Shown here: positions 456 to 30,287 of the stretch, piece after piece
Position numbering within the stretch: the first letter of the stretch is position 1
How the letters are laid out: each line of letters opens with the position of its first letter
Source of the DNA: Zhongshania aquatica
Lineage (GTDB): Bacteria > Pseudomonadota > Gammaproteobacteria > Pseudomonadales > Spongiibacteraceae
Reading direction: 5' to 3'
Assembly: GCF_027257955.1 (NCBI RefSeq)
Contig: NZ_JANZNQ010000027.1
Coordinates: 1 to 35,388, forward strand
Length of the DNA: 35,388 bases
Program-made: the position numbers and the translations under genes
The notes under the pieces: generated by a model
Told to the model about the DNA's origin: nothing
The model's input: the letters and a program-made list of their open reading frames with translations, nothing else
The model's database searches: none

Positions 456-1103
456 TCAAGCGTCCATTATCGCTTCCCCAAAACTATTTTGGAAACATAA
501 AGATTCATTAATTAGCACGGATAATTGGTGGAGCTGGTTACTATAAGTTAGTCTAAGTTGAGCTTCGTCATCTAGAGAATCATTCATCACACATTGTATC
601 CTCAGCTTCTGATTACTTAAGTACTGATATACTGAAAATCCAACATTTCGCTTATATTTTGCCCGTAAATTGATATACCCATCTTTACAAATAAAACGAT
701 TAACTAGCTTAGACATGCGTTTCACAACTCTATCCTCGCCATCTTGGTTCCCACATACAACTGACTTAATATGCTCGACTATTTCCAACCAAATGTCATT
801 CAGGAGAAGCCACTTATCAATACTAGTATCACCGCCATAACTTCTAAAAAGCATATAGAATACACTCTTCAATTTTAACGCTATCTCTTGCTCGGCAATA
901 ACTTTCATCCTTTTGTCGTGATCAACAAACGCAATAATCCATTTTGACTCCCAATAAAGATACGATGTCATAATGTACTCAATTTCTAAGTCAGGCAATG
1001 CTGGCAATCTATTCTTAACAGCCTCTTCTCGCTTATACTTCTTAACCATAATAGACCCATAAAAAGTGGCAATTAGAACAAGAAGCATCATTTCCGTATC
1101 CAC
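456..1103 (-). CDS. hypothetical protein with one N-terminal membrane segment
   Basis: This 215-residue protein is not recognised. Residues about 4-20 (MMLLVLIATFYGSIMV) form one hydrophobic segment that could anchor it in the inner membrane, followed at once by a basic stretch (KKYKREE), so the bulk probably faces the cytoplasm. The rest is mixed charged and aromatic sequence without a motif I can name. It lies alone between transposase remnants and a LysR gene transcribed the same way, 126 bp away, with AT-rich codon use. These features suggest accessory DNA. Coding status rests on length and ordinary composition only. Confidence 0.55.
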   Translation of the reverse strand: MDTEMMLLVLIATFYGSIMVKKYKREEAVKNRLPALPDLEIEYIMTSYLYWESKWIIAFVDHDKRMKVIAEQEIALKLKSVFYMLFRSYGGDTSIDKWLLLNDIWLEIVEHIKSVVCGNQDGEDRVVKRMSKLVNRFICKDGYINLRAKYKRNVGFSVYQYLSNQKLRIQCVMNDSLDDEAQLRLTYSNQLHQLSVLINESLCFQNSFGEAIMDA

Positions 1104-1229
1104 GGGAATACCTCTTTATACCGGAATTTACCTACTATAATTCTTTTACGGCTATCGCAGTAAATGAAAATTTACTACACTTAATATCATTAGTATTGAT
1201 ATTAAGGTGCCACCTAATACCATCACTAC

Positions 1230-2075
1230 CTAGAACTCTCCACGACCCGCTACTTCTACAGCACAACTTAGTGCCTCTAATGCAATACCCATCAATTTGG
1301 ATGCGTTACCGCGAGAATATATAACATATATTGGATAGCTGAATTCCGGTACGCCATCAATGCGCTCAACAAGACCGCTATCGATATATGGCTTAACCAC
1401 ACGGCTCCTAAAGTACCCGCTGCCGCCGTGACAAGCTAAATGATCCAAAGCTAGAGGGCCATAATCTACATATAAATCGCTACGGCACAGCTCTGGAAGA
1501 GCCGCATCATGCTGACGACAGAAATGTTCACCCCAATCTACATATATATACGGATCTGCACTCTTTACCGACTTCACTTTGATTAACTTTTCTTCTAATA
1601 CTTGCTCTGCCTGGATACCTGGCCAGTAATCCGGCTGATGAACAAGCGCGGCATCTAACACGCCACGCTCGATTTTTTCATGAAGACTCGAGCGCTCCGC
1701 CACCTCTATTCGAACACCTACATCGCCTTTATTAATTCTCAATTCATGCAGCCATTCCAATAGCAGAGGATTCCAAAGGCTCGCCTCCCCACCCAAAGTT
1801 AAGATCGTATCTGCTCCCTTTGGGAGAGGAAGCTCTCTACGAGCCACTTCCCACACTTGAACCAATTGGCTCGCATGGGAAATAAATCGCTCACCATCAT
1901 TAGTAACCTTTGCTCCCGCTCGATTACGAACAAACAATCTACAACCTAATTGCCCTTCAAGGTTTCTGATCCGGGCAGTAACAGTAGTTTGAGTAACATG
2001 CAGACGTTCACCTGCAGCAATGAAACTACCTGTTTTAACTATTTCAAGAAAAGTCCGTGCAAGTTCAATATCCAT
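1230..2075 (-). CDS. LysR-family transcriptional regulator
   Basis: The 281-residue protein begins MDIELARTFLEIVKTGSF and has the classical N-terminal LysR winged helix-turn-helix (residues about 2-60, with AAGERLHVTQTTVTARIRNL as the recognition region and LEGQLGCRLFVR following). The remainder is the length of a LysR effector domain. It is divergent from the sulfite reductase cluster, separated from the cysJ start by about 106 AT-rich bases. In LysR families such a position usually means control of the divergent operon and of itself. It is not obviously CysB or Cbl: it is shorter (CysB/Cbl are about 320) and differs in its start. The ligand is unknown; a sulfur compound would fit the neighbours. 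Confidence 0.9.
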   Translation of the reverse strand: MDIELARTFLEIVKTGSFIAAGERLHVTQTTVTARIRNLEGQLGCRLFVRNRAGAKVTNDGERFISHASQLVQVWEVARRELPLPKGADTILTLGGEASLWNPLLLEWLHELRINKGDVGVRIEVAERSSLHEKIERGVLDAALVHQPDYWPGIQAEQVLEEKLIKVKSVKSADPYIYVDWGEHFCRQHDAALPELCRSDLYVDYGPLALDHLACHGGSGYFRSRVVKPYIDSGLVERIDGVPEFSYPIYVIYSRGNASKLMGIALEALSCAVEVAGRGEF

Positions 2076-2181
2076 AAGTCTCTATCAATATTTTTCAATT
2101 AAACTGACATTATATTTCATTATTCATCAAAATATCTGCTTGTCATACTGTCAGAAATATAACCTGAAAGCAGTACTTTCA

Positions 2182-3915
2182 ATGCAAGCACCTAACCATA
2201 TATTTTCAAAACAGCAGTGGCGCGAACTACACAGCTTACTCAATGAACTAGATGACAAACAATCATTGTGGCTAAGCGGCTACCTTGCAGCCACTGCAAT
2301 AGAATCAACAGCGACTGAAAACAGTACCAATCTAAACATTCCGCTAATTGCATTTGGCACCGAGACCAATAATTGCAAGCAACTTGCCTATCTATTCCGC
2401 GACTTATGTCGCAAGTCTGGAATCAACGTAGATGTTTCCGACCTTTCATACATCAAACCCCGAGCACTATACAAACGAGATCATTTTGTAGTCATCACTT
2501 CAACTCACGGTGATGGTGCCCCCCCTGAGCCAATAACACCTTTTTATGAAGCGCTATTCAGCAACGACGCACCTAAACTTAATAATATCAAATTTTCTGT
2601 ATTAGCTTTAGGCGATAGCAGCTATGAGAAATTCTGTGCTACCGGTATACAAATAGATCATCGCTTAGAGGAGTTAGGTGGTCACCGCTTTTTACCTCGA
2701 CAAGATTGTGACGTTGACTATGAAGAATCTGCAAAAAAATGGATGGCATCATTACTGACGTTACTTCCCAGAAGTTCAAAGAACGCTAGCGATAAACTAC
2801 ATTTAAACTTACCGATCACGCCTAGCGAATGCAATAAAAGTAATCCCGTCACTCTTGAAGTGCTATCAAATTTGAACCTTAGCAGCAAAAGTAGAAAGGA
2901 TCCCATTCACCACCTTGAGCTAGCGATCGGTTCCAATACCATCTCTGTCGAACCCGGGGATGCAGTAGGCGTTTATGTTGCCAATCCACCCGAACTTGTA
3001 GCGGCATTATTAGATGCGACCGGTCTCTCCGCTGAACACCCAGTGACACTAGATGGTCATGCGCTTCAACTAGTTGAAGCATTAAGGGAACACCGCGATC
3101 TAACCATCCCGAGCTTAGCACTTTTAGAATATTGGTCTAATTTAACGAACGATACGGAACTAACTACCATTGCAAACAGCACAAAACCAGATCAACGCCG
3201 GTATTTACGCACAATACAAGTGTCAGATCTGATAATTAAGCAGCCCGCCCATCCAGACCCACAATCCCTAATTAATACATTGCGCCCATTACAGCCGCGG
3301 CTATATGACGTATCTAATTCGCTTTCAGCAATCGATGATGAGATTCACCTTACTGTCAAAATGTATAGATATCCATTTGGAAAACGCAGAGAGGAAGGTA
3401 TTGCGTCACGATTCCTGCTTGAATTGCAGCCCGGTGATAGCATTACAATTTACCCCCACCAAAATACTCGGTTCCACTTACCAAAGGACAACACCACCCC
3501 AGTAATTCTCTTTGCCGAAGGCACAGGCATCGCACCCTACCGAGCCTTTATTCAAAAATTATCAACTCTGGAACAAGCACCTCAATGTTGGCTGCTATTT
3601 AAAGAACAACACTTTGAAGAAGACTTTCTTTATCAGATTGATATTCAACGAGCTCACATAAATAACGTTATCACCCATATAGACACTGTATTTTACGGCG
3701 ATAGCTGCGAAGCCACACTGCATTCAATCGCTCTCAAAAATGAGCAACGACTCATGTCGTGGATCGACAAAGGAGCACACCTCTACTTTTGCGGAAAAAG
3801 AGCCACTTTAGAGCACTGCGAGTCCCAATTAAAACGACATTACGATTTTTGTTTAGGCGAAGGAAAGTGGACGTCTCTTTCTAAAAGTAAGCGTATCCAT
3901 CGCAACCTATACTAG
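2182..3915 (+). CDS. cysJ: sulfite reductase [NADPH] flavoprotein alpha subunit
   Basis: This subunit carries electrons from NADPH through FAD and FMN to the sulfite reductase hemoprotein, which reduces sulfite to sulfide in the cytoplasm. The 577-residue product (E. coli CysJ is 599) has an FMN flavodoxin domain with FGTETNN near residue 57 and LGDSSYE further on, a ferredoxin-reductase FAD domain with RLYDVSNS near 373, a pyridine-nucleotide site with GTGIAPYRAF near 446, and an aromatic C-terminus. RLYDVSNS differs from the more usual RLYSISSS, with D in place of the first serine. The frame is open upstream to 2020, but that part overlaps the divergent LysR start and has no family similarity, so the ATG at 2182 is chosen. 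cysI starts 10 bp after the stop. Confidence 0.93.
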   Translation: MQAPNHIFSKQQWRELHSLLNELDDKQSLWLSGYLAATAIESTATENSTNLNIPLIAFGTETNNCKQLAYLFRDLCRKSGINVDVSDLSYIKPRALYKRDHFVVITSTHGDGAPPEPITPFYEALFSNDAPKLNNIKFSVLALGDSSYEKFCATGIQIDHRLEELGGHRFLPRQDCDVDYEESAKKWMASLLTLLPRSSKNASDKLHLNLPITPSECNKSNPVTLEVLSNLNLSSKSRKDPIHHLELAIGSNTISVEPGDAVGVYVANPPELVAALLDATGLSAEHPVTLDGHALQLVEALREHRDLTIPSLALLEYWSNLTNDTELTTIANSTKPDQRRYLRTIQVSDLIIKQPAHPDPQSLINTLRPLQPRLYDVSNSLSAIDDEIHLTVKMYRYPFGKRREEGIASRFLLELQPGDSITIYPHQNTRFHLPKDNTTPVILFAEGTGIAPYRAFIQKLSTLEQAPQCWLLFKEQHFEEDFLYQIDIQRAHINNVITHIDTVFYGDSCEATLHSIALKNEQRLMSWIDKGAHLYFCGKRATLEHCESQLKRHYDFCLGEGKWTSLSKSKRIHRNLY

Positions 3916-3924
3916 GAATTAATT

Positions 3925-5634
3925 ATGGATCTAAACACTAAATTACCCAGTCAACTAATAGATAATCTTCATGAAAATGAAAAATTAAAAGCGACTAGTC
4001 GACATCTACGTGGAAACATCTCAAATGGATTAGATAACCCCCTTACCGGCGCAGTTCCTGGGGACGACCATCTTTTAATGAAATTCCATGGCGTCTATCA
4101 ACAAGATGATCGAGATTTACGAAATGAACGCCGTCAAAGGTACTTAGAAAATCTTTTTCAATTCATGGTTCGCCTTCGTATACCCGGGGGCGTACTTACC
4201 AAAGATCAATGGCATGGACTCGATATTTTATCAAGGCGATTTGCTGAACGAGGAATACGTATTACAACACGTCAAACAATACAGTTTCATGGCATTCGAA
4301 AGCGGAAATTGCGAGCACTCATGCAAGGAATTCATAATCTAGGCTTAGATACTATTGCTGCATGTGGCGATGATAATCGTGGCGTTGTTTGTGGAGCAAA
4401 TCCGAGCCTATCCGCACTAAATAAGCAAGTTAACGAACTTGCTAAAGAGACAAGCAACCGCCTCATTCCTAAAACCGGCGCATACTCTGAGATATGGTAC
4501 CAAAAACCCACAGTTAAAACCGATAATGAAGAACCTATTTACGGTGATTTATATTTGCCCCGTAAATTTAAGGTAGGCTACGCTATACCTCCCATCAACG
4601 ACATAGATGTATACGGCCAAGACGTTGGTTACATTGCCATAATAGAAAACGGTGCACTTACTGGTTTCAACGTTTGCGTAGGTGGCGGCATGGGGCAATT
4701 AGATGCAAGGACCGACAGCTATCCTAGACTAGCCGATCTAATCGGGTTTATTGAGGCCGATAAAGCACCACGGCTTGCCGAGACGATAATGACCATACAG
4801 CGAGACTTTGGTGATCGGATAGACAGACACCGTGCGCGCTTCAAATACACCCTAGACCGACTGGGGTTAGATTGGTTTAACAATGAGCTAACTGCGCGTT
4901 TTGGCGAGACCTTGGGCTTACCACGCCCATTCAAATTTGAACAAAATGGAGACAAATTAGGCTGGCATCAGGCCGATGATGGTCTTTGGCATACGACTAT
5001 ATATATCGAAAATGGCCGAATTGACGGCGCACTTCGTGATCAGTTATCTGGATTTTTTCAGTTTTACGGCGGACGCATTAGGCTTACCACCAATCAAAAT
5101 TTGCAACTTACCCACATTGCCGATTACGAAAAGAGTCAAATACAATCACGCCTAGACGACCTCGATTTACTATGGCGATTAACACCACATCATCAAGCTA
5201 ATCATCTTCTAAGCTGTGTAGCATTACCCACCTGCGGCTTAGCCATGGCCGAAGCGGAGCGCTACATGCCAAGGTTATTAGATCTATTCGAGCGTTTAAA
5301 GGCACGTCACGGCGTAAACGACATACCTATAACAATACGACTTACCGGTTGCCCCAATGGCTGCGCCCGCCCCTATTTAGGTGAAATCGCCCTTACTGGC
5401 CGAGCACCTGGATTATACAATCTCTATTTAGGTGGCAGTTTTCATGGCGATCGTTTAGCGACTCTTTACGCTAGTAATATTGATGAGGAAACCTTCTCCA
5501 TCTTACTTAGCCCATTACTCGAGCACTACAGTAATGAACGTTTGACCAACGAGCACTTTGGCGATTTTTTAGTTCGCCAAAAGTTGCTAGATTCTCAATG
5601 CACATCCGTCAACCTAGGAAACCCCAATGTCTAA
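3925..5634 (+). CDS. cysI: sulfite reductase [NADPH] hemoprotein beta subunit
   Basis: This is the siroheme and 4Fe-4S catalytic subunit that carries out the six-electron reduction of sulfite to sulfide. At 569 residues it matches E. coli CysI (570). The cluster/siroheme cysteines are all present in the expected spacing: C431 and C437 in SCVALPTCGLAMAEAE, and C476 and C480 in TGCPNGCARP. The N-terminal half contains the family blocks MYQQDDRD-like VYQQDDRDLRNERR, RQTIQFHGI and the IPPINDIDVY region. The assimilatory type is supported by the CysJ partner. No cysG, cysH, cysD or cysN lies in the window. The last codons overlap the next gene by 8 bp, a sign of translational coupling. Confidence 0.95.
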   Translation: MDLNTKLPSQLIDNLHENEKLKATSRHLRGNISNGLDNPLTGAVPGDDHLLMKFHGVYQQDDRDLRNERRQRYLENLFQFMVRLRIPGGVLTKDQWHGLDILSRRFAERGIRITTRQTIQFHGIRKRKLRALMQGIHNLGLDTIAACGDDNRGVVCGANPSLSALNKQVNELAKETSNRLIPKTGAYSEIWYQKPTVKTDNEEPIYGDLYLPRKFKVGYAIPPINDIDVYGQDVGYIAIIENGALTGFNVCVGGGMGQLDARTDSYPRLADLIGFIEADKAPRLAETIMTIQRDFGDRIDRHRARFKYTLDRLGLDWFNNELTARFGETLGLPRPFKFEQNGDKLGWHQADDGLWHTTIYIENGRIDGALRDQLSGFFQFYGGRIRLTTNQNLQLTHIADYEKSQIQSRLDDLDLLWRLTPHHQANHLLSCVALPTCGLAMAEAERYMPRLLDLFERLKARHGVNDIPITIRLTGCPNGCARPYLGEIALTGRAPGLYNLYLGGSFHGDRLATLYASNIDEETFSILLSPLLEHYSNERLTNEHFGDFLVRQKLLDSQCTSVNLGNPNV

Positions 5635-5953
5635 TTACTTATTCATCCAAAGCCAAGATCCTTTCACGGAAACACGCACAAGCCATCAGTATCAACTTGC
5701 TCAAGATCTACTGCTCGCCGGCAACACCGTCACCGTACTACTTGTTCAAAACGGTGTAATGCCAGCTAGACAGAAGGCTATCTCAAAAGAATTTGATGCC
5801 CTTTTGAATTCAACTGTCGTCGTCATCGCTGACAAATTTTCTTTACAACAAAGAGATATATTTAATAACGAACTTAAAAATAATATCTATGTGGGAACAT
5901 TAGAGCATGCCATCGACGCTCTACTTGCTGGTCACAAAGTTATTTGGAACTAG
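5627..5953 (+). CDS. DsrE/Tus-like small sulfur-relay protein (no cysteine)
   Basis: The 108-residue protein begins MSNYLFIQSQDPF and continues with a Rossmann-like pattern of hydrophobic strands (VTVLLVQNGVMPAR near residues 38-52 and a closing ALLAGHKVIWN). This is the layout of DsrE/DsrF/DsrH and TusBCD-type proteins, which pass persulfide sulfur between proteins as hetero-hexamers. I see no cysteine in it, so if it is in such a complex it is a structural partner like TusB or TusC. It overlaps the end of cysI by 8 bp and is followed 8 bp later by a related gene. Family assignment is by fold pattern; the exact subfamily is not certain. Confidence 0.65.
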   Translation: MSNYLFIQSQDPFTETRTSHQYQLAQDLLLAGNTVTVLLVQNGVMPARQKAISKEFDALLNSTVVVIADKFSLQQRDIFNNELKNNIYVGTLEHAIDALLAGHKVIWN

Positions 5954-5961
5954 GAGAAATT

Positions 5962-6381
5962 ATGAAAAGTACTAATGAACAAACATTAACATTCGCTTTC
6001 ATGGATCCCCCCTTTGAAAGTGAGAGAACGGTAACATTCTTCCGCCTTCTGGAAGCTGCACTTGATAAAGGGGCGAATATAAGAGTGTTTGCATACGAAG
6101 GTGCTGTATCTTTGTCACTCTCCTTACAAAAGGCCCATGGTAATTCGATTCATGGCAGAAACGCCAAAGAAGAAGACCACCCTTTGAGCAAAGATTGGAT
6201 ATCTAGCCTACAACATAAAGCAGCTAGCAATAATTTGAAGTTTGAATGGATTAACTGCGGACTTTGCGTCGACGAAAGAGGCGTCACCGATGTTATTAAA
6301 GGCTGCACCCGAGGAGGTCCTCCAGACCTGTGGCGATATGCTAGTGAATCACTAAACACCCTCACAATAGGAACGAGGTAG
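5962..6381 (+). CDS. DsrE-family protein with CxxC, candidate persulfide carrier
   Basis: The ATG at 5962 follows a strong AGGAG at 5952-5956, giving 139 residues. The N-terminal strand-helix (LTFAFMDPPFESERTVTFFR) and the late INCGLCVDERGV segment match DsrE-type proteins, in which a cysteine near this place carries sulfane sulfur. Here there are three: C99 and C102 in a CxxC arrangement and C115 in GCTRGGPPD. It is the only cysteine-bearing member of the trio, so in a DsrEFH/TusBCD-like complex it would be the catalytic subunit, as TusD is in E. coli. The position directly behind cysJI suggests that sulfide or persulfide made there is passed on; that is inference. Confidence 0.7.
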   Translation: MKSTNEQTLTFAFMDPPFESERTVTFFRLLEAALDKGANIRVFAYEGAVSLSLSLQKAHGNSIHGRNAKEEDHPLSKDWISSLQHKAASNNLKFEWINCGLCVDERGVTDVIKGCTRGGPPDLWRYASESLNTLTIGTR

Positions 6382-6386
6382 ACCGA

Positions 6387-6767
6387 ATGAAAGTACTACA
6401 AGTTATTGACCAAGCCTTTCGCACAACAACAGAAGAACAGGACGACACAATACTTTGGCTTACTCGATCCATGCGTAGTGTAGGTGGCGATCTCACAGTA
6501 TTACTGGCTGGGCACGGCGCATATTACGCGGTTCTAAAAACTGCTCAACCTTCTCTCTCTCTAGGAAAATGGCATCAAAGCCAACCCGCTGATTTACCAA
6601 AGGACATCAATCAATTAATCGATAGTGGTGTGCCCGTATTTATTATTGAGGAAGACTTTATAGAACGCGGTTTACAACGACAATCTATTATTCAAGGCGT
6701 ACAAACGATAGCACGACATAATTTACCAGTACTTTACGAACACGCCGACCAGGTGTGGCAATGGTAA
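6387..6767 (+). CDS. DsrE/Tus-like small protein, third member of trio
   Basis: The 126-residue protein (MKVLQVIDQAFRTTTEEQDD at its start) shows alternating strands and helices with LTVLLAGHGAYYAVLK in the middle and VFIIEEDFIERG later, again resembling DsrE/DsrH/TusB-type proteins. No cysteine is present. It starts 5 bp after the preceding stop and overlaps the next gene by a few bases (ATGGTAA junction), so it is plainly co-translated with its neighbours. The combination of one cysteine protein and two cysteine-free ones mirrors TusD with TusB and TusC. Assignment to the superfamily is moderate; I would not assign it to a specific subunit type. Confidence 0.55.
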   Translation: MKVLQVIDQAFRTTTEEQDDTILWLTRSMRSVGGDLTVLLAGHGAYYAVLKTAQPSLSLGKWHQSQPADLPKDINQLIDSGVPVFIIEEDFIERGLQRQSIIQGVQTIARHNLPVLYEHADQVWQW

Positions 6768-7756
6768 AAACTACCTCGCCTCTACATACCCCACTTTGTG
6801 ACTTACTAGGCTGTCAATTTCCTATTATGCTTGCGGGAATGGGAGGCGTAGCTAGGCACCGCCTCGCAAGCGCCGTTGCTAACGCCGGCGGATTTCCAGT
6901 ACTTGGCATGGTACGCGAACCTTGCGAGCGCATGCGCTTCGAAATAGCCGCACTCAAACAGCAATGTATTACTCCCTTTGCAGTCAATCTCATTCCTGCG
7001 GCAACAGATTCCAGCCTGCTAAAAGCACAAGTAAGTCTATGCATAGAACTAGATGTTCCATTTATAGCATTATTCTGGGATATCGATAAAAAGCTGATTC
7101 ACCAATTAAAGTTTGAAGGATGTAAAATTATCCATCAAGTCGGTAATCGCAAGGACGCTGAAGCCGCATTGGATGCAGGAGTTGACGTCCTCATAGCACA
7201 AGGGCAAGAAGCCGGAGGACATGTACGCGGCAAAGTCAGCAGTCTCCCCCTCTTAGCAGAATTACTTCCAATAAGTCCTATACCGGTTGTAGCCGCAGGC
7301 GGCATAGGCAATGGTAAGTCAATCGCAGCAGCACTAACTCTTGGCGCCCAAGGTGTAAGTTTAGGTACTGCTTTTTTAGCGACTACTGAGGCTAATGCCC
7401 ATGAGCATCACAAGCAGCGGATCATCAAAGCAAATGCCAACGATACCGTTTACACCACTCAGTTTCACCGCAATTGGCATGAACCTGCTCCAGTAAGAGT
7501 ACTTGCAAACGCTATCACTCGAGGGGAGCGTATAGACTCGAACAAACAAGATCATCCTATTGTAATTGGCTATCAAGACAATCAATCCATACATCTCTGT
7601 TCCACAGACTCTCCGCTAACTGATGCTATAGGTGCCATTGATGATATGGCGCTTTATTCCGGTCAATCGTGTGGTCAGATAGCGAAAGTAACTAGTGTGA
7701 AACAAAGAGTCGACGCGCTGGTTACAGAAGCCAAATTGGCGCTGAAATTTCCCTAA
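6761..7756 (+). CDS. nitronate monooxygenase-like FMN enzyme (NPD family)
   Basis: The 331-residue product is an FMN-binding TIM barrel of the 2-nitropropane dioxygenase/nitronate monooxygenase family. Diagnostic blocks are PIMLAGMGGVA near the N-terminus, the catalytic-histidine motif AQGQEAGGH near residues 146-154, and the phosphate-binding VVAAGGIGNG and GVSLGTAFL further on. The ATG at 6761 overlaps the previous stop (ATGGTAA) and has AGGTG just upstream; a GTG two codons earlier is also possible. Family members oxidise nitronates, but many homologues have unrelated or unknown substrates. Sitting behind sulfite reductase and DsrE-like genes, an oxygenase or reductase acting on an organosulfur compound is plausible, which is inference. 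Confidence 0.85.
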   Translation: MVKTTSPLHTPLCDLLGCQFPIMLAGMGGVARHRLASAVANAGGFPVLGMVREPCERMRFEIAALKQQCITPFAVNLIPAATDSSLLKAQVSLCIELDVPFIALFWDIDKKLIHQLKFEGCKIIHQVGNRKDAEAALDAGVDVLIAQGQEAGGHVRGKVSSLPLLAELLPISPIPVVAAGGIGNGKSIAAALTLGAQGVSLGTAFLATTEANAHEHHKQRIIKANANDTVYTTQFHRNWHEPAPVRVLANAITRGERIDSNKQDHPIVIGYQDNQSIHLCSTDSPLTDAIGAIDDMALYSGQSCGQIAKVTSVKQRVDALVTEAKLALKFP

Positions 7757-7905
7757 ATGATATCCCTAGAGATTATCTCAAAAACTGAAGAACAGTAATT
7801 TTCTTAAATTGCAGCGAAGAAAACCTACTTACACCGTACACATTTGAAATTTGTATTCACACACAACTTATATTACGCAATTCCTTAAAGGGAGATCCAC
7901 CCATC

Positions 7906-10563
7906 ATGCTTCTCGACAGTGATCCTCACGAAACAAAGGAGTGGCTTGACGCTTTAGATTCCGTTATCCAGTTTAATGGTCAAGAACGAGCGCACTTTCT
8001 TGTTTCTCATCTCATTGATAAGGCGACATTATCAGGGATTGCGCTGCAAAATGCAGTTACCACTCCTTTTCAAAATACCATTGCGCCCCATCAGGAAAAA
8101 TTAATGCCAGGCGACCTTTTTATGGAACGCCGTATTCGTTCGCTAATTCGCTGGAACGCGCTCGCCATGGTAGTTAGGGCAAACACCAAAAATTCCGGAA
8201 TCGGTGGCCATATAACAACTTTTTCCTCCTCAGCTACCTTATATGACATAGGCTTTAATTATTTTTTCCATGGCCGAGGGTCAGATCATCTTGGTGATTT
8301 AGTGTACTTTCAAGGACATAGTTCGCCCGGAATCTATGCCCGCTCATTTTTAGAGGGTCGCCTAACCGAGGAGCAACTGGAAAACTTTCGTTTAGAAGTC
8401 GACGGCAACGGCCTTTCCTCATACCCCCATCCTTGGCTGATGCCCGACTATTGGCAATTCCCCACTGTGAGCATGGGTCTAGGGCCTATCCAAGCAATTT
8501 ATCAAGCGCACGTTATGCAATATCAACATAGCCGCGGTTTAATAGACCAAAATAATCGCAAGGTCTGGTGCTTTTTAGGCGACGGAGAATGTGATGAACC
8601 TGAATCTTTAGGTGCGATTTCATTAGCGGGTCGCGAAAAGCTCAACAACCTCATATTCGTCGTCAACTGTAATCTGCAGCGCCTAGACGGTCCAGTACGC
8701 GGCAATGGAAAAATAATACAAGAACTTGAAGGAGTGTTCCGCGGCGCGGGTTGGAATGTCATCAAAGTAGTATGGGGCCGACTATGGGATCAGTTATTGA
8801 AAAAAGACACCACTGGCTTACTCCTGCGCCGTATGGACGAAGTGGTTGACGGCGAATTACAGAATTACAAAGCCAACGGTGGAGCCTACACTAGGGAACA
8901 TTTTTTCGGCAAGTACCCTGAATTACTTGAATTAGTCAAAGACCTCTCTGACGATGAAATCATGCATCTTAATCGTGGTGGTCATGACCCATATAAAGTA
9001 TACGCCGCATACGCAAACGCGATAGAGACGAAGGATAAGCCAACCGTAATACTAGCTATGACGGTAAAGGGCTACGGTCTCGGTAGTAGTGGCGGAGAGG
9101 CACAAAACGAAGCCCACTCAGTAAAAAGTCTAGACATGGATGAAATGAAACGTTTCAGAGATCGCTTCGATATACCGATTAGCGATGAAGATCTTGTTAA
9201 TGTCCCATATTACCGCCCGCCAAATGACAGCCCTGAAATCCAATATATGCATGCGCAACGCCAAAAATTAGGCGGTTATTTACCAGCTAGAGTATCGGAT
9301 TATGATTCTTTAACGGTTCCGGATCTCACTAAATTTGAAAGTCAACTTAAAGGTACGGGTACTAGAGAAATTTCCTCAACAATGGCCTTTGTTCGTGTTT
9401 TATCTACGCTAATAAAAGACAAAAATATAGGCAACAAAATCGTACCCATCGTGCCGGATGAGGCGCGCACGTTCGGCATGGAAGGCATGTTCCGACAACT
9501 TGGAATCTATTCATCACAAGGTCAGCGTTACACTCCGCAGGATGCCGGCCAGATTATGTATTACAAAGAATCAAAAGAAGGTCAAATACTAGAGGAAGGC
9601 ATTACTGAAGCTGGCGCCTTCTCTGCTTGGCTTGCGGTGGGAACATCTTATGCCAACCATAAAATGCCATTAATTCCATTTTACATATTTTATTCTATGT
9701 TTGGATTTCAACGAGTGATGGATCTCTGCTGGGCTGCCGGTGACTCTCAAGCTAGGGGGTTCCTCATCGGTGGCACATCCGGACGCACCACCTTGAACGG
9801 AGAAGGCTTACAACACCAAGATGGCCATAGTCACCTGCTAGCAAATATGATCCCAAATTGCGTATCTTATGATCCGACCTACTCATACGAGGTAGCCGTG
9901 ATTATCCAAGATGGCATTAAACGCATGTATCACAACAAAGAAAACATTTTCTACTATATAACCGTAATGAATGAAAACTACCCCCACCCAGTAATGCCAA
10001 ACGGCTGCGAAGCCAACATCATTAAAGGCTTGTATAAGATACAGGGCATGACCGACGAGACATCCAAATTAAAAGTTCAATTACTAGGCAGTGGTGCCAT
10101 TTTACGAGAAATTGAAGCAGCCGCTGAGATTCTCAAAGAAAATTACAATGTAGGCACGAACGTATGGAGTGCAACCAGTATTAATCAATTGCAACGTGAC
10201 GGTATGGATTGCGAACGTTGGAATAGGCTTCACCCGTTAGAATCCCCCAAGACTTCTTTTGCTAGCCAGCAATTAAACCAAATAAATGCACCAGTAATAT
10301 GTGCCACTGATTACATTAAGGCCTACGGAGAACAATTACGACCCTACATTAATTGCCGTTACGTGGTACTTGGCACTGATGGATATGGACGTTCTGACAC
10401 TCGCCCAAAATTACGTGAGCATTTTGAAGTCGATCGCAAACACATCGTCGTCGCTGCCTTAAAGGCACTAAGTGACGACGGCGTAATTCCGGCGACAGAA
10501 GTAAACCAAGCCATCATAAACATGGAAATTGAAACTAATGGCTTAAACCCGCTTTATAAATAG
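7906..10563 (+). CDS. aceE: pyruvate dehydrogenase E1 component, homodimeric type
   Basis: The 885-residue protein (E. coli AceE is 887) is the thiamine-diphosphate E1 that decarboxylates pyruvate and acetylates the lipoyl group of E2. It has the ThDP motif opening GDGECDEPES near residue 225 and the VVNCN closing element, DEARTFGMEG in the second half, and RGFLIGGTSGRTTLNGEG. The histidine corresponding to E. coli His407 is present in NEAHSVKSLDMD. A good GGGAGA ribosome site precedes the ATG. The 149-bp gap from the previous gene holds a possible TTGAAA/TTATAT promoter (7844-7849 and 7868-7873, 18-bp spacer), so aceEF may have its own start as well as read-through. No PdhR-like gene is nearby. 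Confidence 0.93.
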   Translation: MLLDSDPHETKEWLDALDSVIQFNGQERAHFLVSHLIDKATLSGIALQNAVTTPFQNTIAPHQEKLMPGDLFMERRIRSLIRWNALAMVVRANTKNSGIGGHITTFSSSATLYDIGFNYFFHGRGSDHLGDLVYFQGHSSPGIYARSFLEGRLTEEQLENFRLEVDGNGLSSYPHPWLMPDYWQFPTVSMGLGPIQAIYQAHVMQYQHSRGLIDQNNRKVWCFLGDGECDEPESLGAISLAGREKLNNLIFVVNCNLQRLDGPVRGNGKIIQELEGVFRGAGWNVIKVVWGRLWDQLLKKDTTGLLLRRMDEVVDGELQNYKANGGAYTREHFFGKYPELLELVKDLSDDEIMHLNRGGHDPYKVYAAYANAIETKDKPTVILAMTVKGYGLGSSGGEAQNEAHSVKSLDMDEMKRFRDRFDIPISDEDLVNVPYYRPPNDSPEIQYMHAQRQKLGGYLPARVSDYDSLTVPDLTKFESQLKGTGTREISSTMAFVRVLSTLIKDKNIGNKIVPIVPDEARTFGMEGMFRQLGIYSSQGQRYTPQDAGQIMYYKESKEGQILEEGITEAGAFSAWLAVGTSYANHKMPLIPFYIFYSMFGFQRVMDLCWAAGDSQARGFLIGGTSGRTTLNGEGLQHQDGHSHLLANMIPNCVSYDPTYSYEVAVIIQDGIKRMYHNKENIFYYITVMNENYPHPVMPNGCEANIIKGLYKIQGMTDETSKLKVQLLGSGAILREIEAAAEILKENYNVGTNVWSATSINQLQRDGMDCERWNRLHPLESPKTSFASQQLNQINAPVICATDYIKAYGEQLRPYINCRYVVLGTDGYGRSDTRPKLREHFEVDRKHIVVAALKALSDDGVIPATEVNQAIINMEIETNGLNPLYK

Positions 10564-10585
10564 GCCTACACAAAAGGATCTCAGG

Positions 10586-11884
10586 ATGGCTACTCAAACA
10601 ATTGAAACACCAGACCTAGGTAATGATCAGGCCGCCGAAGTCATTGGGATCTGTATTATGGCTGGCGACAGTGTCACCGAAGGTGATCCTCTCATTGTCT
10701 TAGAGTCTGATAAAGCTTCAATGGAAATCCCCTCACCGTTAAGCGGCGTAATCCAGGAACTCAAAGTCAAAATTGGAGACAGTATCCAAAAAGGCAATAT
10801 TATTGCAGACATTAAGGTAGCTTATCAGCCACCGTCTACTGAAAATAAATGCATACAAGATGATACGGCTGATGACCAAATACGATCCAACAGTGAATTT
10901 AATAGTCCAGCCGTACCACCATCTAATGACCTTTGTGGCCCGCTCTCTAACAGGCCCATGCCGATCGACACCAATAATAGTACCACCGAGATATACGCTG
11001 GGCCTACAGTTCGAAAACTAGCGAGAGAGCTCGGCATTAATTTGAAAGAAATAGACTCCAGCGGCCCTAGAAATCGTATTATTAAAAAAGACATACACAC
11101 TTATGTAAAAAAAATTATTTCCGGCAACAGCATACAAAATATTGCCCCTAACCTATTGGCGAAAACAGATATTGATTTTTCAAAATCTGGATCAATAGAT
11201 GTATTTTCACTCAGCGAGAAAGATAAAATAACCGCATCCACATGCCGCAAACACTGGTTTAGCACACCTCAGGTCACACAGTTCAACGAAGTAGACATTA
11301 GCGATTTAGAGAATTTTCGACACTCTCTTCATAAGGAAGCTGCACACCGCAATATTGAATTAACATTGACGCCATTCATCCTTATGGCAACGGCATCAGC
11401 TCTAAAACAAAACACTAAATTTAGCGCGACACTTAGCCCGGATAATGAAAAAATAATTTACAAAAAATTCATTAATATTGGTGTCACCATAAATACAGCA
11501 GGCGGACTAATTGTCCCCGTACTCCGAGAGGTAGACCAGAAATCCATTTTTGACTTAGCAGAAGAACTGACACAGCTAACGCTCAAATCCCGCAATCAAT
11601 CATTAACGCAAGATGATTTAACCGACGGCTGTTTCACTATTATAAACTTAGGTAAGTATCGCGGCGACGGATTTACACCGATCATTAACTCACCAGAACT
11701 TGCCATTCTTGGCATTTCTCAGATCAATATCAAGCCTATGTGGCACGATCAATGCCTCCATCCACGGACTATGCTTCCCCTATGTCTAAGTTATAATCAC
11801 AAGTTAATCAACAGCGCGGAAGCAGGAAAGTTTTTAACTGACTTAAGCTCGAGACTGGAAGACGTACGCAAGCTACTTCTTTGA
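10586..11884 (+). CDS. aceF: dihydrolipoamide acyltransferase (E2), one lipoyl domain, altered active site
   Basis: The 432-residue protein has one lipoyl domain (residues 1-80, lipoyl-lysine K43 in ESDKASMEIP), a long polar linker, an E3-binding domain (about 139-176, GPTVRKLARELG) and a catalytic domain. E. coli AceF carries three lipoyl domains. The catalytic histidine is kept at H405, but the usual DHRxxDG reads NHKLINS, so the aspartate is asparagine and the glycycine position is serine; the usual FTISSLG reads FTIINLG. In characterised E2 proteins these serine and aspartate positions assist catalysis. It follows aceE by 22 bp with an AAGGA site. No E3 gene follows. It may be a specialised or impaired E2 using a housekeeping E3. 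Confidence 0.85.
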   Translation: MATQTIETPDLGNDQAAEVIGICIMAGDSVTEGDPLIVLESDKASMEIPSPLSGVIQELKVKIGDSIQKGNIIADIKVAYQPPSTENKCIQDDTADDQIRSNSEFNSPAVPPSNDLCGPLSNRPMPIDTNNSTTEIYAGPTVRKLARELGINLKEIDSSGPRNRIIKKDIHTYVKKIISGNSIQNIAPNLLAKTDIDFSKSGSIDVFSLSEKDKITASTCRKHWFSTPQVTQFNEVDISDLENFRHSLHKEAAHRNIELTLTPFILMATASALKQNTKFSATLSPDNEKIIYKKFINIGVTINTAGGLIVPVLREVDQKSIFDLAEELTQLTLKSRNQSLTQDDLTDGCFTIINLGKYRGDGFTPIINSPELAILGISQINIKPMWHDQCLHPRTMLPLCLSYNHKLINSAEAGKFLTDLSSRLEDVRKLLL

Positions 11885-11914
11885 CTTTTTCTCTATTTTA
11901 GAACCGCGCCATTT

Positions 11915-12112
11915 TTAACGTGAGTACCAGGCAGAAATACTGGAGACCAGATACGGAACAATATAAGTTAACGCCACTTTTGTAGCATCTACTTTGTCCC
12001 AATCAGCCAAAAGCACATAATCAAAGTTATTGATTAGGTTCAGCAGGCTTCCGACAATAAGGGCGACAAAAAACCACCGCCCTCGAAGAAAATGCTTAAC
12101 TGCGCTTTCCAT
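11915..12112 (-). CDS. nrtS: NrtS-type nitrate/nitrite transporter
   Basis: This 65-residue protein has two hydrophobic segments (WFFVALIVGSLLNLIN at about 13-28 and VALTYIVPYLVSSISAWY at about 46-63). The pattern of LNLIN followed by TYIVPY and a terminal SAWYSR is that of the small NrtS family, reported as a nitrate/nitrite transporter in cyanobacteria. Its start codon abuts the stop codon of hmp, so the two are co-translated. Since Hmp turns nitric oxide into nitrate, a coupled nitrate carrier makes sense, perhaps for export; direction of transport is inference. Confidence 0.75.
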   Translation of the reverse strand: MESAVKHFLRGRWFFVALIVGSLLNLINNFDYVLLADWDKVDATKVALTYIVPYLVSSISAWYSR

Positions 12113-13285
12113 CTATAAGCTTGTTGTCGGGCCGAAAATTTCATAATGCAATTGTTCATCCGCAAAGCCGATACTACTAAGTTGCCTTTTAAGCTCAGAC
12201 ATAAAAGGCTGAGGGCCGCAAAAATAAACTTGTGCAGATTTGTCGATGAGCCAATTATCTAAGATTGCAGGAGTTAGCCGTCCCGAAAAGTCGCCGCCAT
12301 CCCCATACTCAAAAACTTGCTTCAACACAGTGGCACCGGCATCGGCTAGTTGTTTGAGCTCATCCTTAAATATCTGATGCTCCCTGCCACGACAACATTC
12401 AACGAACAATAGATTTGTTTTGTCCATGCCGCTCGCAACAGCTTGTTGCAACATAGAGAATAGAGGGGTAATACCCACGCCGCCCGAGATAAATACATGC
12501 TGTTGAGCATCACTATTTAAGGTAAATTCGCCAAATGGCGGACTCAATAAGACAGAATCACCGATCGTATAATTATGCAAGACATTAGATATAGTGCCTT
12601 CCGGCTCCTTCTTCACGGTCAGACGATATCTGTCAGTCGAAGTGGACCAATTTGAAAGCGAATACTGCCTGATCTGGTCGTAACCCGTGGCGTTACTAAA
12701 TATTTTCAATCCAACGTACTGGCCGCCTGAAAAATTCAGCACAGGCGCATTGTCGGCAGGCTTGAGGATAAATGATTTCACTTCAGGCGTTTCACCCTTG
12801 ATGCTAATGATATTGAAGGTCCTGAACCCACGCCAACCACCTACTGCCTGCTCACGCGCTGTGTATAGCTCAGATTCAGCGCCAATGAATATGTCCGCAA
12901 GTATCCCGTATGCTTCTCCCCACGCTTCTAGTGCAGGATGTTTGTCAGGCAATGAAAGTACCTGCTGAATGGCCTTAAGCAAACTTGCTCCTACTAGTGG
13001 GTAATGACGCGCCTCAACACCTATACTGGAGTGTTTATTAGCAATGCGTTTAACAGCAGGTACCAACACCTCAATATTGTCAATGTTATTCGCATAAGCC
13101 AGCACTGCATCTGCCAAGGCACGAGATTGAGAGGCATTCCGCTGGTTAGACATGTTGAATACATGCTTTAGATCAGGCGCTGCTTCAAACAGCATCTCAT
13201 AGAATTTTTCTGTAATGCTAAGACCGTTTTCCTGCAGTGCAGGCACAGTGGATTTGACGATATTAATGGTCGATTCTGAAAGCAT
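12113..13285 (-). CDS. hmp: flavohemoglobin / nitric oxide dioxygenase
   Basis: This cytosolic enzyme oxidises nitric oxide to nitrate with oxygen and NAD(P)H. The 390-residue chain has a globin domain (about 1-138) with FYEMLF carrying the distal B10 tyrosine, VFNMSNQ, and the proximal heme histidine in ANKHSSIG. A FAD domain follows with IRQYSLSNW, then an NAD-binding domain with GGVGITPLFSML and VYFCGP. The size and all key residues agree with E. coli Hmp (396). It is the first gene of an hmp-nrtS pair, divergent from nsrR, with a perfect palindrome between them, so NO-inducible repression by NsrR is the expected regulation. Confidence 0.95.
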   Translation of the reverse strand: MLSESTINIVKSTVPALQENGLSITEKFYEMLFEAAPDLKHVFNMSNQRNASQSRALADAVLAYANNIDNIEVLVPAVKRIANKHSSIGVEARHYPLVGASLLKAIQQVLSLPDKHPALEAWGEAYGILADIFIGAESELYTAREQAVGGWRGFRTFNIISIKGETPEVKSFILKPADNAPVLNFSGGQYVGLKIFSNATGYDQIRQYSLSNWSTSTDRYRLTVKKEPEGTISNVLHNYTIGDSVLLSPPFGEFTLNSDAQQHVFISGGVGITPLFSMLQQAVASGMDKTNLLFVECCRGREHQIFKDELKQLADAGATVLKQVFEYGDGGDFSGRLTPAILDNWLIDKSAQVYFCGPQPFMSELKRQLSSIGFADEQLHYEIFGPTTSL

Positions 13286-13299
13286 GTAGGCTACCCCTA

Positions 13300-13324
13300 A
13301 ATATTCATTTCATATGAATATTTA
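13300..13324. promoter_or_regulatory. probable NsrR operator, perfect inverted repeat
   Basis: The arms AAATATTCAT (13300-13309) and ATGAATATTT (13315-13324) are exact reverse complements around a 5-bp centre. It lies 14 bp upstream of the hmp start and 52 bp upstream of nsrR, the place expected for an NsrR site. Known gammaproteobacterial NsrR sites are ~23-bp palindromes with ATTCAT/GCAT-like cores, which this resembles. Binding by NsrR is inferred from position. Confidence 0.7.
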
Positions 13325-13376
13325 CTGTAATGCATGATTGAGTTACGGTCAATCTGCTATTGGGAATAAAAGAAAT

Positions 13377-13802
13377 ATGCAATTAACCAAACACACCGAT
13401 TTTGCCTTTCGAACATTGATTTACCTAGCATCAATGCCTACAGAATCAACGACCATTCAAGATGTCGCCGATCGATTTGACATGCCCAAAAGTCACTTAA
13501 TGAAAGTGGTTAGCACCTTGGTAGCAAATGGTTATGTGCATTCTATACGCGGCAAACAAGGCGGTATTTCGCTCGCAAAGACGCCTGAGGAAATCACGCT
13601 TCGAGAGGTTCTGGAGTTAATGGAAAAGACACTGGAGCCACTAGACTGTGTCGGGCAGGACTGCCTAATATTAAAAACCTGCCGACTAAAACGGACGCTC
13701 AAATCTGCCCAGGACAAATATCTTGTGCACCTAGGCGGATACTCGATTGCAGATATGGTCGACACCCCCACTATTAATGTGATTCACCTTTTAACCCCTT
13801 AA
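13377..13802 (+). CDS. nsrR: NO-sensitive Rrf2-family repressor NsrR
   Basis: The ATG at 13377 (MQLTKHTDFAFRTLIYLASM) aligns with the start of E. coli NsrR; the 13-codon extension upstream is not needed. The 141-residue protein has an Rrf2 winged helix (recognition part SHLMKVVSTLVANGY, wing RGKQGGISL) and three cysteines spaced C-x4-C-x5-C in DCVGQDCLILKTC, which in NsrR ligate the NO-sensing Fe-S cluster. Loss of the cluster on nitrosylation relieves repression. Location divergent from hmp with a shared palindrome fits autoregulation and control of hmp-nrtS. RirA or IscR are less likely given the cysteine spacing and neighbour. Confidence 0.92.
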   Translation: MQLTKHTDFAFRTLIYLASMPTESTTIQDVADRFDMPKSHLMKVVSTLVANGYVHSIRGKQGGISLAKTPEEITLREVLELMEKTLEPLDCVGQDCLILKTCRLKRTLKSAQDKYLVHLGGYSIADMVDTPTINVIHLLTP

Positions 13803-13882
13803 ATTGCCGAGTACTCGATTGGGATAGCCCACATCCCGCTGCCACCATCGTTTATAAGACATGCTGAATCTAAGTATAAGTA

Positions 13883-13912
13883 GGAACGTTTTCCACCCAG
13901 GTGGCATCAAAT
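13883..13912 (+). promoter_or_regulatory. ECF-type promoter upstream of the sigma factor gene
   Basis: GGAAC at 13883-13887 and TCAAAT at 13907-13912 are separated by 19 bp. The sigma gene ATG follows 30 bp later. GGAAC is the usual -35 core of ECF sigma factors. The identical layout (GGAACG, 19 bp, TCTAAT) recurs upstream of the gene at 15555, which supports both as real and suggests autoregulation. Confidence 0.6.
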
Positions 13913-13942
13913 GGTTATATACCGCAAATCCGGAAAGCTCAT

Positions 13943-14689
13943 ATGCCCACATTGCCATTTGATGCTCAAAATACGCCAGCCGAACTGAGTGATATTGAAC
14001 TGGCTCAGCGCATCGCCGCAGCCGACACCGTAGCATTGGAGCTGTTGATGCGTAGGCACAATCAATTACTGTATCGAGCCGCCCGCAGCATCCTCAAGAA
14101 CGAGGAAGAAGCGGAGGAGGCGGTACAGGATGCCTATCTACAAGCCTTCCACACTATAGGAAAATATCGCGGTGATGCCAAACTCTCAACGTGGTTAACT
14201 CGCATTACAATTAACGAAGCGTTAGCGCGCGCCCGTAAATACAAGCGTCGCGCCGAAATTGCCCCCATTTATGGCGGCGAAATGCTCGCCACTGCAGCGC
14301 AAGAGGATTCCCAAATGCAACACAGTGCTGCCTCCTCCCCTGAGACTGAGGCCCAGAACGCTGACATTCGCCGCCTGATCGAACGCAATATCGACAAACT
14401 CCCTGAAGCATTTCGCTCGGTGTTTGTACTTCGCGCACTGGAAGAAATGACGGTCGAAGAAACCGCTACTTGTCTTAGTATTCCCGAAGCTACTGTGCGG
14501 AGTCGCTACTTCCGTGCTCGTGGCCAAATGCGCGAAGCACTAGCGCGAGAAATTGATAGTAACTACGAAGAAGCTTTCGGTTTCGCCGGTGATCGTTGTG
14601 ACCGCATCGTCAATAAGGTATTAGATCAACTTGCGACTAAGATCGCCCCTCTTAAACCCCACTGCCCCCCCGGGGAACGCAAGCGCTAA
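13943..14689 (+). CDS. ECF RNA polymerase sigma factor
   Basis: The ATG at 13943 has GGAAAG six bases upstream; a longer start at 13901 would overlap the predicted promoter. The 248-residue protein has sigma region 2 (LLMRRHNQLLYRAARSIL, then EEAEEAVQDAYLQAFHTIG and KLSTWLTRITINEALARAR) and region 4 (LPEAFRSVFVLRALEEMTVE, with EATVRSRYFRARGQMREAL as recognition helix). A C-terminal extension after region 4 (EAFGFAGDRCDRIVNKVL) is longer than in minimal ECF factors and might take part in control. No anti-sigma gene is adjacent; the next intact gene is 860 bp away and pseudogenes lie between. A promoter of the same type drives the exported protein at 15555. Confidence 0.9.
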   Translation: MPTLPFDAQNTPAELSDIELAQRIAAADTVALELLMRRHNQLLYRAARSILKNEEEAEEAVQDAYLQAFHTIGKYRGDAKLSTWLTRITINEALARARKYKRRAEIAPIYGGEMLATAAQEDSQMQHSAASSPETEAQNADIRRLIERNIDKLPEAFRSVFVLRALEEMTVEETATCLSIPEATVRSRYFRARGQMREALAREIDSNYEEAFGFAGDRCDRIVNKVLDQLATKIAPLKPHCPPGERKR

Positions 14690-16241: not shown

Positions 16242-16303
16242 AAATATGGAATTGCAGCTGCGCATGAGTAGCTGCCTATCACGGTAAATAAAAGGAACTG
16301 AAT

Positions 16304-16707
16304 ATGTTGAGCCACGCTTTGAGCGCATTTGGTGTTGCCGCCGTAGGCGGCTTAGTCCTAGCAGCAAGCATGCTGCGCAATAAATTCCCCCCATGGACAC
16401 TATCCCCCGTACATACGCTATTGGGCACCACCGGATGTGGAAATGCGGTGCCCACCATACTGACCGGTCTTCCGGACCTGTCACGAGCTCCTGAGGGGGC
16501 GCCCATGTGGGATGCGTATTAGCACATGGCAGCCATGCTGCTGGCGCTCACCTTATTTACAACGAGATTATTACTTGGTTTGGAACATTTCCAAATTGTC
16601 GCACCTAACACTACGTCATTGTACCCCGATGCGACAGGGTCTATCTCGTTTATTCTGGACGGCTGGCTAGGTGACAACTGATGTATGAGCACGGCGCCGA
16701 TACCTAA
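16304..16707 (+). pseudogene. DUF2231-like membrane protein, broken by stop and frameshift
   Basis: The frame starts MLSHALSAFGVAAVGGLVLA after an AAGGAA site and runs to an in-frame TAG at 16520. Reading on in the same frame gives HMAAMLLALTLFTTRLLLGL and ILDGWLGDN, then TGA. A one-base shift at about 16677 continues LMYEHGA to a stop at 16707. HxAAMLLAL, GGWLG and LVYxHG are the C-terminal hallmarks of DUF2231-type four-helix membrane proteins, so the two breaks interrupt one ~133-codon gene. It sits between the exported protein and folE and was likely part of the same transcript. Confidence 0.65.
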
Positions 16708-16792
16708 TCATACGCTGACCTCTCCCATTGATTTTATACTGTGCATTTTTCAACAGATCTGTTCTTACGCACCTCTACCGAGTATTTATTAC

Positions 16793-23003: not shown

Positions 23004-23269
23004 CCTTTCCTGCTAAGGTCTATATTCAGCATTCTGCATAAAGCCTTTTTGTAATTTAATGTCTCTGGAGTGCCTACTTCGGCGACCTAAATTAGGGGTA
23101 ATCTTGAGTATCTTGCATTTCAATCATGATTTTAAAGATTTGTAAGCCTATAGTTAGGGGCGTTGGCGGTACACCGTATGATGACGGTGGGTTACAAAAA
23201 GCCTAATATTACTGAGAGAATTTAGCCGTCAATACTGCTAATGAACGCTTAGAAATGGAGATGAAAGCT

Positions 23270-30210: not shown

Positions 30211-30287
<77 letters not shown>

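Follow-up and report, generated by a model that had tools for sequence, protein, structure and literature searches.

A recurrent sulfite reductase, DsrE-type and NPD-family operon of Gammaproteobacteria and its nitrogen-oxide gene context

The locus and its conserved operon

The DNA considered here, referred to as the window, is a stretch of 35,388 nucleotides (nt) from Zhongshania aquatica (contig NZ_JANZNQ010000027.1), and our subject is a group of seven genes lying near its start. A LysR-family regulator (1230..2075, reverse strand), which is kept together with the operon, is divergent from a cysJ-like gene for a sulfite reductase flavoprotein of 577 aa (2182..3915, forward strand, as are all the operon genes that follow). 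The cysJ product has Flavodoxin_1, FAD_binding_1 and NAD_binding_1 domains; the ATG at 2182 was used as its start, the mechanical frame opening at 2020. It is followed by a cysI-like gene for a siroheme sulfite reductase (3925..5634; NF010029, 677.6 bits, cut-off 457), by three genes for DsrE-type subunits, and by npd, a gene for a flavoenzyme of the 2-nitropropane dioxygenase/nitronate monooxygenase family (6761..7756; mechanical start GTG 6755). The three DsrE-type genes are dsrE1 (5627..5953; PF02635, 24.5 bits, cut-off 22.7), dsrE2 (5962..6381; Pfam DsrE, 35.4 bits; mechanical start TTG 5944) and dsrE3 (6387..6767), whose product appears DsrH/TusB-like from the DsrH match of its predicted model. 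With the starts chosen, the gaps among the six genes from cysJ to npd are 9, -8, 8, 5 and -7 nt. The gene order, the families and the spacing of the first six genes (overlapping or within 10 bp) given in the original prediction, which was made from the sequence without database searches, are thus borne out by the coordinates of the open reading frames (ORFs) and by family scans. A promoter and terminator scan of positions 1000-14000 gave no larger number of sites than shuffled sequence does.

Loci were compared by using the proteins of the window as tblastn queries against the loci fetched. The arrangement lysR<>cysJ-cysI-dsrE1-dsrE2-dsrE3-npd recurs in 15 loci: the window, Zhongshania marina ZX-21 (L004, NZ_PQGG01000030.1), Alcanivoracaceae (family f222; L049-L053, L055, L056 and L063-L067) and a metagenome-assembled genome (L054). 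A remnant in genome G602 (L057), trios without cysJI (L030-L032 and L085), a Methylophaga variant (L084) and a second stretch of the Z. marina genome (L034) were kept out of this set. Every gene of the block is matched in one piece in 14 of the 15 loci. The exception is L066 (genome G757), where a deletion has fused cysJ to the last third of cysI (7186-9073); because the trio and npd remain intact there, this suggests that they can be retained without CysJI. The pairwise identities of lysR, cysI, dsrE2, dsrE3 and npd are correlated, with r between 0.76 and 0.92 over 12 loci (11 for cysI; the set is without L004, L052 and L065). The recurrence of the seven-gene block together with the co-variation in identity is more than chance, and the proposal that this is a real operon behind LysR, one that joins sulfite reductase to a sulfur relay and NPD, is upheld. 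On a plasmid of Methylophaga thalassica (L084) a variant is found in which LysR is 60% identical to that of the window, CysJ 38%, CysI 59% and the three DsrE-type proteins 54, 71 and 46%. In this variant a ccoN gene and a gene for an 80-aa protein lie between dsrE3 and a different NPD (32%), at 15858-18502.

The conserved element between lysR and cysJ

Outside Zhongshania, the LysR proteins of the 13 loci share 62-65% identity with that of the window; the figure is 50% in L029, where lysR lies beside npd without cysJI. In the gap between lysR and cysJ we found the element TATTTCATTATT-N19-CATACT (2113..2149, forward strand), which occurs once in each of the 15 gaps. A search of whole genomes, allowing up to two mismatches, found it once per genome in all 16 searched, the 15 operon carriers plus genome G002, with 15 exact copies and one with two mismatches. 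A reversed-pattern control matched once in the window's genome (G000) and once in G012, a genome placed in the same genus, and not at all in the remaining 14. The copy with two mismatches is that of G002, where it lies between a LysR (50%) and an NPD (52%) with neither cysJI nor the trio present. We infer that the element is probably the operator plus -10 region of one dedicated LysR.

Nitrogen-oxide genes around the operon

The recurrent context of the operon is nitric oxide (NO) and nitrite metabolism, which was not considered in the original prediction though the window itself holds an hmp-like flavohemoprotein gene (12113..13285, reverse strand; Globin, FAD and NAD domains) and an Rrf2/NsrR-like regulator gene (13374..13802, forward strand; TTG 13338 in the ORF list), 0.2 to 2 kb after aceF. 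The regulator scores above the rrf2_super cut-off, and its best named model is NsrR (117 bits, under the cut-off of 182). Relatives of hmp and nsrR lie near the operon on the lysR side in L055, L063, L066 and L067, the hmp copy of L066 exceeding the cut-off for NO-inducible flavohemoprotein, and in Z. marina hmp is 9 kb downstream. An nsrR relative, NnrS, the copper nitrite reductase NirK (TIGR02376, above cut-off) and qNOR are present in L056, and NnrS is near the operon in L049. In total, 8 of the 15 loci have hmp, nsrR, NnrS, NirK or qNOR at a distance of about 10 kb or less. In five further genomes (G771, G774, G738, G706 and G560) NnrS lies about 13-28 kb from the operon edge, which brings the loci with NO or nitrite genes within 30 kb to 13 of 15. 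The arrangements differ: hmp is downstream in Zhongshania and upstream in Alloalcanivorax, and NnrS occurs on either side.

Among 46 Alcanivoracaceae genomes NnrS is present in 9 of 12 carriers of the operon versus 6 of 34 non-carriers (Fisher p 0.0006, taking the genomes as independent), and qNOR in 5 of 12 versus 1 of 34 (p 0.003). Within one carrier genus the contrast for NnrS is 2/2 versus 1/15 (p 0.022), within the other 7/10 versus 0/3 (p 0.07). As a yardstick, of the 9 carriers that have NnrS, 7 have it on the contig of the operon and no more than 30 kb away from it; for the other CysI of these bacteria, described below, this is so in 0 of the 14 genomes with both, several of the genomes being fragmented.

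CysJI and the redundancy of sulfite reduction

The CysI of the window aligns to the Escherichia coli SiRHP structure 6c3m over residues 13-554 and keeps R83, R152, K214 and K216 as well as four cysteines (431, 437, 476 and 480), which we take to be the sulfite-binding residues and the siroheme-cluster ligands, respectively. It scores 661 bits against the narrower TIGR02041, under the cut-off of 756.55. CysJ has all three domains and reaches 469 bits against the equivalog TIGR01931, whose cut-off is 668. Sulfite reductases are promiscuous toward nitrite, and it is conceivable that CysJI acts mainly on nitrogen (nitrite, hydroxylamine or NO), with NPD freeing nitrite from nitro compounds and the trio maintaining or protecting the enzyme. 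Besides this promiscuity, the NO and nitrite neighbours of the operon are in line with such a role, as are gdhA-type genes near the operon, near the lone npd and near plasmid-borne relatives of NPD (gdhA-type genes are seen in L004, L029 and L064, and in L065 from the sequence start only). We nevertheless hold it to be unlikely: the CysI pocket retains both sulfite reductase lysines, K214 and K216, of which the second is replaced by Asn in nitrite reductases, the trio is left without a clear role, and nitrite reduction may already be covered because NirB-sized relatives (frames of 849-907 aa, family not tested) are found in all 12 carriers.

A CysI of another type lies beside DUF934 elsewhere in the window's genome, the only genome in which that link was checked. 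In the Alcanivoracaceae this other type is found in 44 of 46 genomes, at 57-63% identity, with or without the operon, the two exceptions being 86% complete. On this ground the CysJI of the operon looks accessory, and main sulfate assimilation as its sole role is rejected, another CysI being nearly universal in the family sampled. Neither cysH, cysD nor cysG is found in the window, as had been pointed out; genome-wide, only a second gene of sulfite/nitrite reductase type was sought, and this is the one found with DUF934. The view that CysJI is not the main assimilatory enzyme is thus probably right.

A related possibility is that the operon provides back-up assimilatory sulfite reduction plus a TusBCD-like relay for tRNA thiolation, and that it lies near NO genes because both were inserted at the same hot spot. 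In favour of this are the assimilatory or Tus type of every enzyme, a metY that adjoins the operon in L054, the patchy distribution and the plasmid carriage. What makes this rather unlikely in our opinion is that the genomes keep another CysI alongside, that the operon has its own element, present once per genome, and that a hot spot alone would not lead one to expect a lone lysR-npd pair that has almost the same element and lies among NO genes.

The DsrE trio

The three subunits form a putative trio of adjacent DsrE-fold proteins, assigned by Pfam for dsrE1 and dsrE2 and by predicted models for dsrE2 (a middling model) and dsrE3. In the alignment dsrE2 is the only subunit with conserved cysteines, those of the stretch NCGLCVDERG plus C115, which makes it the candidate persulfide-carrying E/D-type subunit, with three candidate cysteines. 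The first subunit, dsrE1, has no conserved cysteine and may be called DsrF-like by elimination only. The third, dsrE3, likewise has no conserved cysteine and has no Pfam match; its predicted structure matches DsrH, and its orthologue in Methylophaga matches Pfam DsrH. Profiles of dsrE1 and dsrE2 searched against PDB sequences gave matches at chance level, and that of dsrE3 gave weak TusB/DsrH matches. Between lysR and npd, the part of the 15 genomes searched for them, there is no dsrAB, dsrC/tusE, tusA or yeeE.

Related trios occur outside the operon. Three distant ones (L030:8733-9874, L031:8641-9782 and L032:10831-11982), with dsrE2 55-56% identical, lie beside a gene for an MBL-rhodanese, persulfide dioxygenase-like protein (family-tested in L031) and not beside CysJI, and the trio in L085 adjoins metal ATPases. 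The former raise the possibility of sulfite detoxification or sulfane-sulfur homeostasis, in which the trio would gather persulfide, elsewhere for the persulfide dioxygenase-like enzyme, while in the operon CysJI would return sulfite to sulfide. Genes for cytochrome bd and CydDC near the operon in L051 (in L052 and L053 from sequence starts only) fit sulfide exposure and NO equally. Since sqr, pdo or a sulfite exporter was not recognised as recurring with the full operon, and since NPD and the NO genes would be left unexplained, we find this scheme quite improbable.

The NPD flavoenzyme in and beyond the operon

The npd product matches PF03060 (Pfam NMO) at 175.9 bits (cut-off 28) and scores 188.8 bits against the FabK equivalog TIGR03151, under the cut-off of 453.1. 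Its closest solved structures are FabK and 3bo9 of T. maritima. After npd a DUF488 gene is present in L049 and L050 (Pfam), and look-alikes are seen in several other loci. The gene is also found without the rest of the operon, as in L029, where lysR and npd without cysJI are accompanied by nsrR, a truncated globin and gdhA.

Plasmid-borne relatives of NPD were collected at E <= 1e-60 (16 records), and the 12 annotated contexts were inspected with flanks of 7 or 8 kb; H6 and H20, which have no annotation, and H8 and H9, not examined, were left out. NO-type genes are near NPD in 8 of the 12. One context has Hmp, Rrf2, NnrS, NirB and NarG, three have Rrf2, group III truncated hemoglobin and hemerythrin (one of them also NnrS and cbb3 oxidase), one (L091) has Rrf2, hemerythrin, cysM and a metal-sulfur assembly factor, and in two cbb3 oxidase and gdhA occur together with Rrf2 or truncated hemoglobin. 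The eighth context, which is the weakest case, has DUF6522 and cbb3 oxidase. In H17, scored as without an NO gene, a group II truncated hemoglobin is cut at the edge of the stretch. DUF488 adjoins NPD in 6 of the 12. These eight contexts indicate that the NO link follows NPD, whether or not the trio is present. The metY of L054 and the cysM and assembly factor of L091 fit the use of sulfide.

Some relatives are fused to DUF6306 (P0197, P0213 and P0215). For P0213 and P0215 a dsrE2 protein is found on an equally long contig (3037 and 4934, respectively), and the fusion may be a variant of the operon.

Distribution

The distribution of the operon is patchy. With dsrE2 as query at E <= 1e-20, matches were found in 12 of 46 genomes of the Alcanivoracaceae and in one of the two genomes of the family to which the metagenome-assembled genome belongs. 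At the order level there were 11 in 390, one of them (G602) a remnant, and at the class level 4 in 369, namely the window's own genome and three distant trios that lack cysJI in the flanking DNA examined. A phylum sample at E <= 1e-15 gave no further carrier, the single match in 398 being the window's own genome. In a protein search, Marinobacter, Halomonas, Methylophaga and Methylotenera names were among the best 120 of 1161 matches. The dsrE2 and NPD proteins of Marinobacter sp. 1Y8 and of Halomonas elongata are on equally long contigs, which suggests that the two genes are linked there. The remnant (L057, 9181-9752) consists of a partial dsrE2 and a whole dsrE3 and adjoins transposase-like genes.

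Other genes in the window

Downstream from npd, on the same strand, are an aceE paralogue (7906..10563; TIGR00759, 1421 bits, cut-off 859.9) and, from family scans, an aceF-type E2 with one lipoyl domain (10586..11884; 423 bits against the E2 equivalog TIGR01348, cut-off 552). The gap from npd to aceE is 149 nt and that from aceE to aceF 22 nt. Both are neighbours outside the conserved operon. The original prediction had included them in a scheme in which sulfite freed from an organosulfur substrate is captured by CysJI and the trio, and a 2-oxo acid product is turned into acyl-CoA by aceEF. The scheme drew on the presence in the window of a sulfite reductase without cysH or cysD and on the same-strand position of aceEF 149 nt downstream, which is likewise found in Z. 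marina. We regard it as very improbable. It had itself named gene-order comparison as the test for mere neighbours, and this comparison divides the cluster: cysJI, the dsrE trio and npd are a recurrent block, and aceEF adjoin the operon in 2 of 15 loci only, both from Zhongshania, which rules them out as part of the unit. The window's genome has another aceEF on contig C12 (its E1 is 74% identical, and its E2 has 550 aa and two lipoyl stretches), and the aceEF of the window are bystanders, a second pyruvate dehydrogenase copy; the channelling of a 2-oxo acid through them is not sustained. The release of sulfite from an organosulfur substrate is not supported: no sulfonatase, desulfonating oxygenase or other gene for sulfonate or sulfone cleavage, and no sulfonate transporter, was recognised in the flank ORFs of the 15 loci, mostly judged by eye. 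We saw xsc once, in the vicinity of a distant NPD, on a Paracoccus plasmid that has neither cysJI nor dsrE.

Four further features of the window may be recorded. An ORF of 215 aa at 456-1103 has no Pfam or NCBIfam match, and an 80% identical copy lies in a similar place upstream of lysR in Z. marina. An ECF (extracytoplasmic function) sigma factor is encoded at 13901-14689 and an exported-looking protein of 228 aa, with no Pfam match, at 15555-16241; in L050 relatives of the two follow DUF488 as adjacent genes, and on the Paraburkholderia plasmid of L091 NPD is next to a sigma factor gene whose product shares 49% identity with that of the window. A helicase-like protein of 1994 aa (23255-29239), matching the PADLOC candidate defence model PDC-S37 (1197 bits) and Hhe (538 bits), is encoded between an integrase-like gene (21228-22481) and a tRNA-Met (30211-30287), and the region may be a defence island.

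Proposed function

Whether the seven-gene LysR set serves as an accessory sulfur module, inherited patchily and acting together with nitrogen-oxide (nitrite/NO) metabolism, is, in our judgement, an evenly balanced question, and this is the interpretation that we prefer. It is built on the order of the genes and its conservation, the element present once per genome, the active site of CysI, the single subunit with conserved cysteines, the CysI of another type and the linkage to NO and nitrite genes. It supposes the activity of every enzyme, the direction in which sulfur would flow, the binding of LysR and its inducer, the substrate of NPD and a benefit under NO. In this scheme binding of the dedicated LysR to the conserved element would turn the operon on, and CysJI would use NADPH to reduce sulfite to sulfide. 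The DsrE/F/H-like trio would store the sulfur as persulfide on dsrE2 and pass it on for the repair of NO-damaged thiols or Fe-S sites, and the NPD flavoenzyme would remove a nitro or nitronate compound or a related product of nitrosative chemistry. That sulfide is made and held as persulfide is suggested because the sulfur half of the operon, CysJI and the trio, speaks for it, while NPD, the lone lysR-npd locus and the gene neighbourhood speak for the link to nitrite and NO. The simplest joint reading of the two would be a supply of sulfur under nitrosative stress for Fe-S and thiol repair. A more specific form of the same idea, possible in our opinion though on balance doubtful, is that of a dedicated nitrosative-stress operon, in which the private LysR would sense a product of nitrite or NO and switch on a second sulfite reductase, the sulfide from this enzyme would go onto the cysteine-rich DsrE-type carrier and serve to restore NO-damaged Fe-S and thiol sites, and NPD would clear nitro products. 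If true, this would explain the puzzling npd genes of anaerobic and denitrification studies.

Several observations weigh against the link to nitrogen oxides. Being neighbours does not establish a common function, and loci from the same family cannot count as independent; for the same reason the p values given above overstate independence, because the genomes are related. No NO gene was recognised within 15 kb in L054, or up to the contig end in L050, whose genome has NnrS on another contig. Three of the 12 carriers lack NnrS, and 6 of the 15 NnrS-bearing family members lack the operon. The exact FNR-type pattern is absent from the 15 lysR-cysJ gaps, in which no NsrR-site search was made. The NPD of Methylophaga belongs to a different subfamily (32% identity), and its lysR-cysJ gap holds a loosely similar sequence with no match to the element within four mismatches. 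Four of the 12 plasmid contexts of NPD were counted as without an NO gene, one of them near xsc. Around the trios without NPD (L030-L032 and L085) no NO gene was recognised, and the NO link may for this reason belong to LysR and NPD only.

A description of this operon was not found by our searches of the open-licence PubMed Central (PMC) literature, absence from which is not absence from print. If the sulfur module proposed here does work with nitrogen-oxide metabolism, a compact, transferable operon with its own regulator joins the chemistries of reduced sulfur and of NO stress, which are usually studied apart. The known nitronate monooxygenase reaction uses O2 and nitroalkanes, and the operon would then also offer a clue to why genes of this name occur among anaerobic and denitrification genes despite that reaction. 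Moreover, it would point to a DsrE-type relay that serves neither tRNA thiolation nor the Dsr pathway. The set has few genes and lends itself to tests in marine bacteria that can be grown in culture.

Comparison with known systems

Genes named as npd have been encountered in related settings. NGO1024 of Neisseria gonorrhoeae is reported as an npd gene that is induced anaerobically, and is called unusual (PMC3032703), and BPSL2363 of Burkholderia pseudomallei, a putative 2-nitropropane dioxygenase, appears in a supplementary legend with NorB, SufB and hemerythrin genes (PMC8191878). The passages that deal with these two genes describe no cysJI-dsrE operon, unlike the situation found here, and the likeness to the NPD of the window is by family name only. 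PMC1274295 has no npd entry under the terms nitropropane, COG2070, DUF488, COG3189, sulfite and cbb3, none of which occurs in it. DsrEFH proteins have been divided into types I and II, type II being defined by a hidden Markov model score cut-off of 80 bits (PMC13293266); in the main text of that paper CysI, nitronate and Alcanivorax do not occur.

With the E. coli CysJI the operon shares the gene pair, the domain make-up, the active-site residues of CysI and the siroheme cysteines. It differs in having its own LysR, in forming one operon with a sulfur relay and NPD, in a CysJ under the equivalog cut-off, and in hosts that also hold a CysI of another type. The NPD shares with the nitronate monooxygenase family the Pfam NMO domain and the EAGGH stretch; it differs in scoring far under the cut-off of the FabK model, in its frequent NO and nitrite gene contexts and in the fusion of some relatives to DUF6306. 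The trio resembles DsrEFH and TusBCD in its three adjacent DsrE-family genes, in the single subunit with conserved cysteines and in the DsrH-like third subunit. Unlike those systems, it has in dsrE2 a C-x2-C motif plus a third cysteine, its order appears to be F?-E-H, and its partners are CysJI or an MBL-rhodanese protein.

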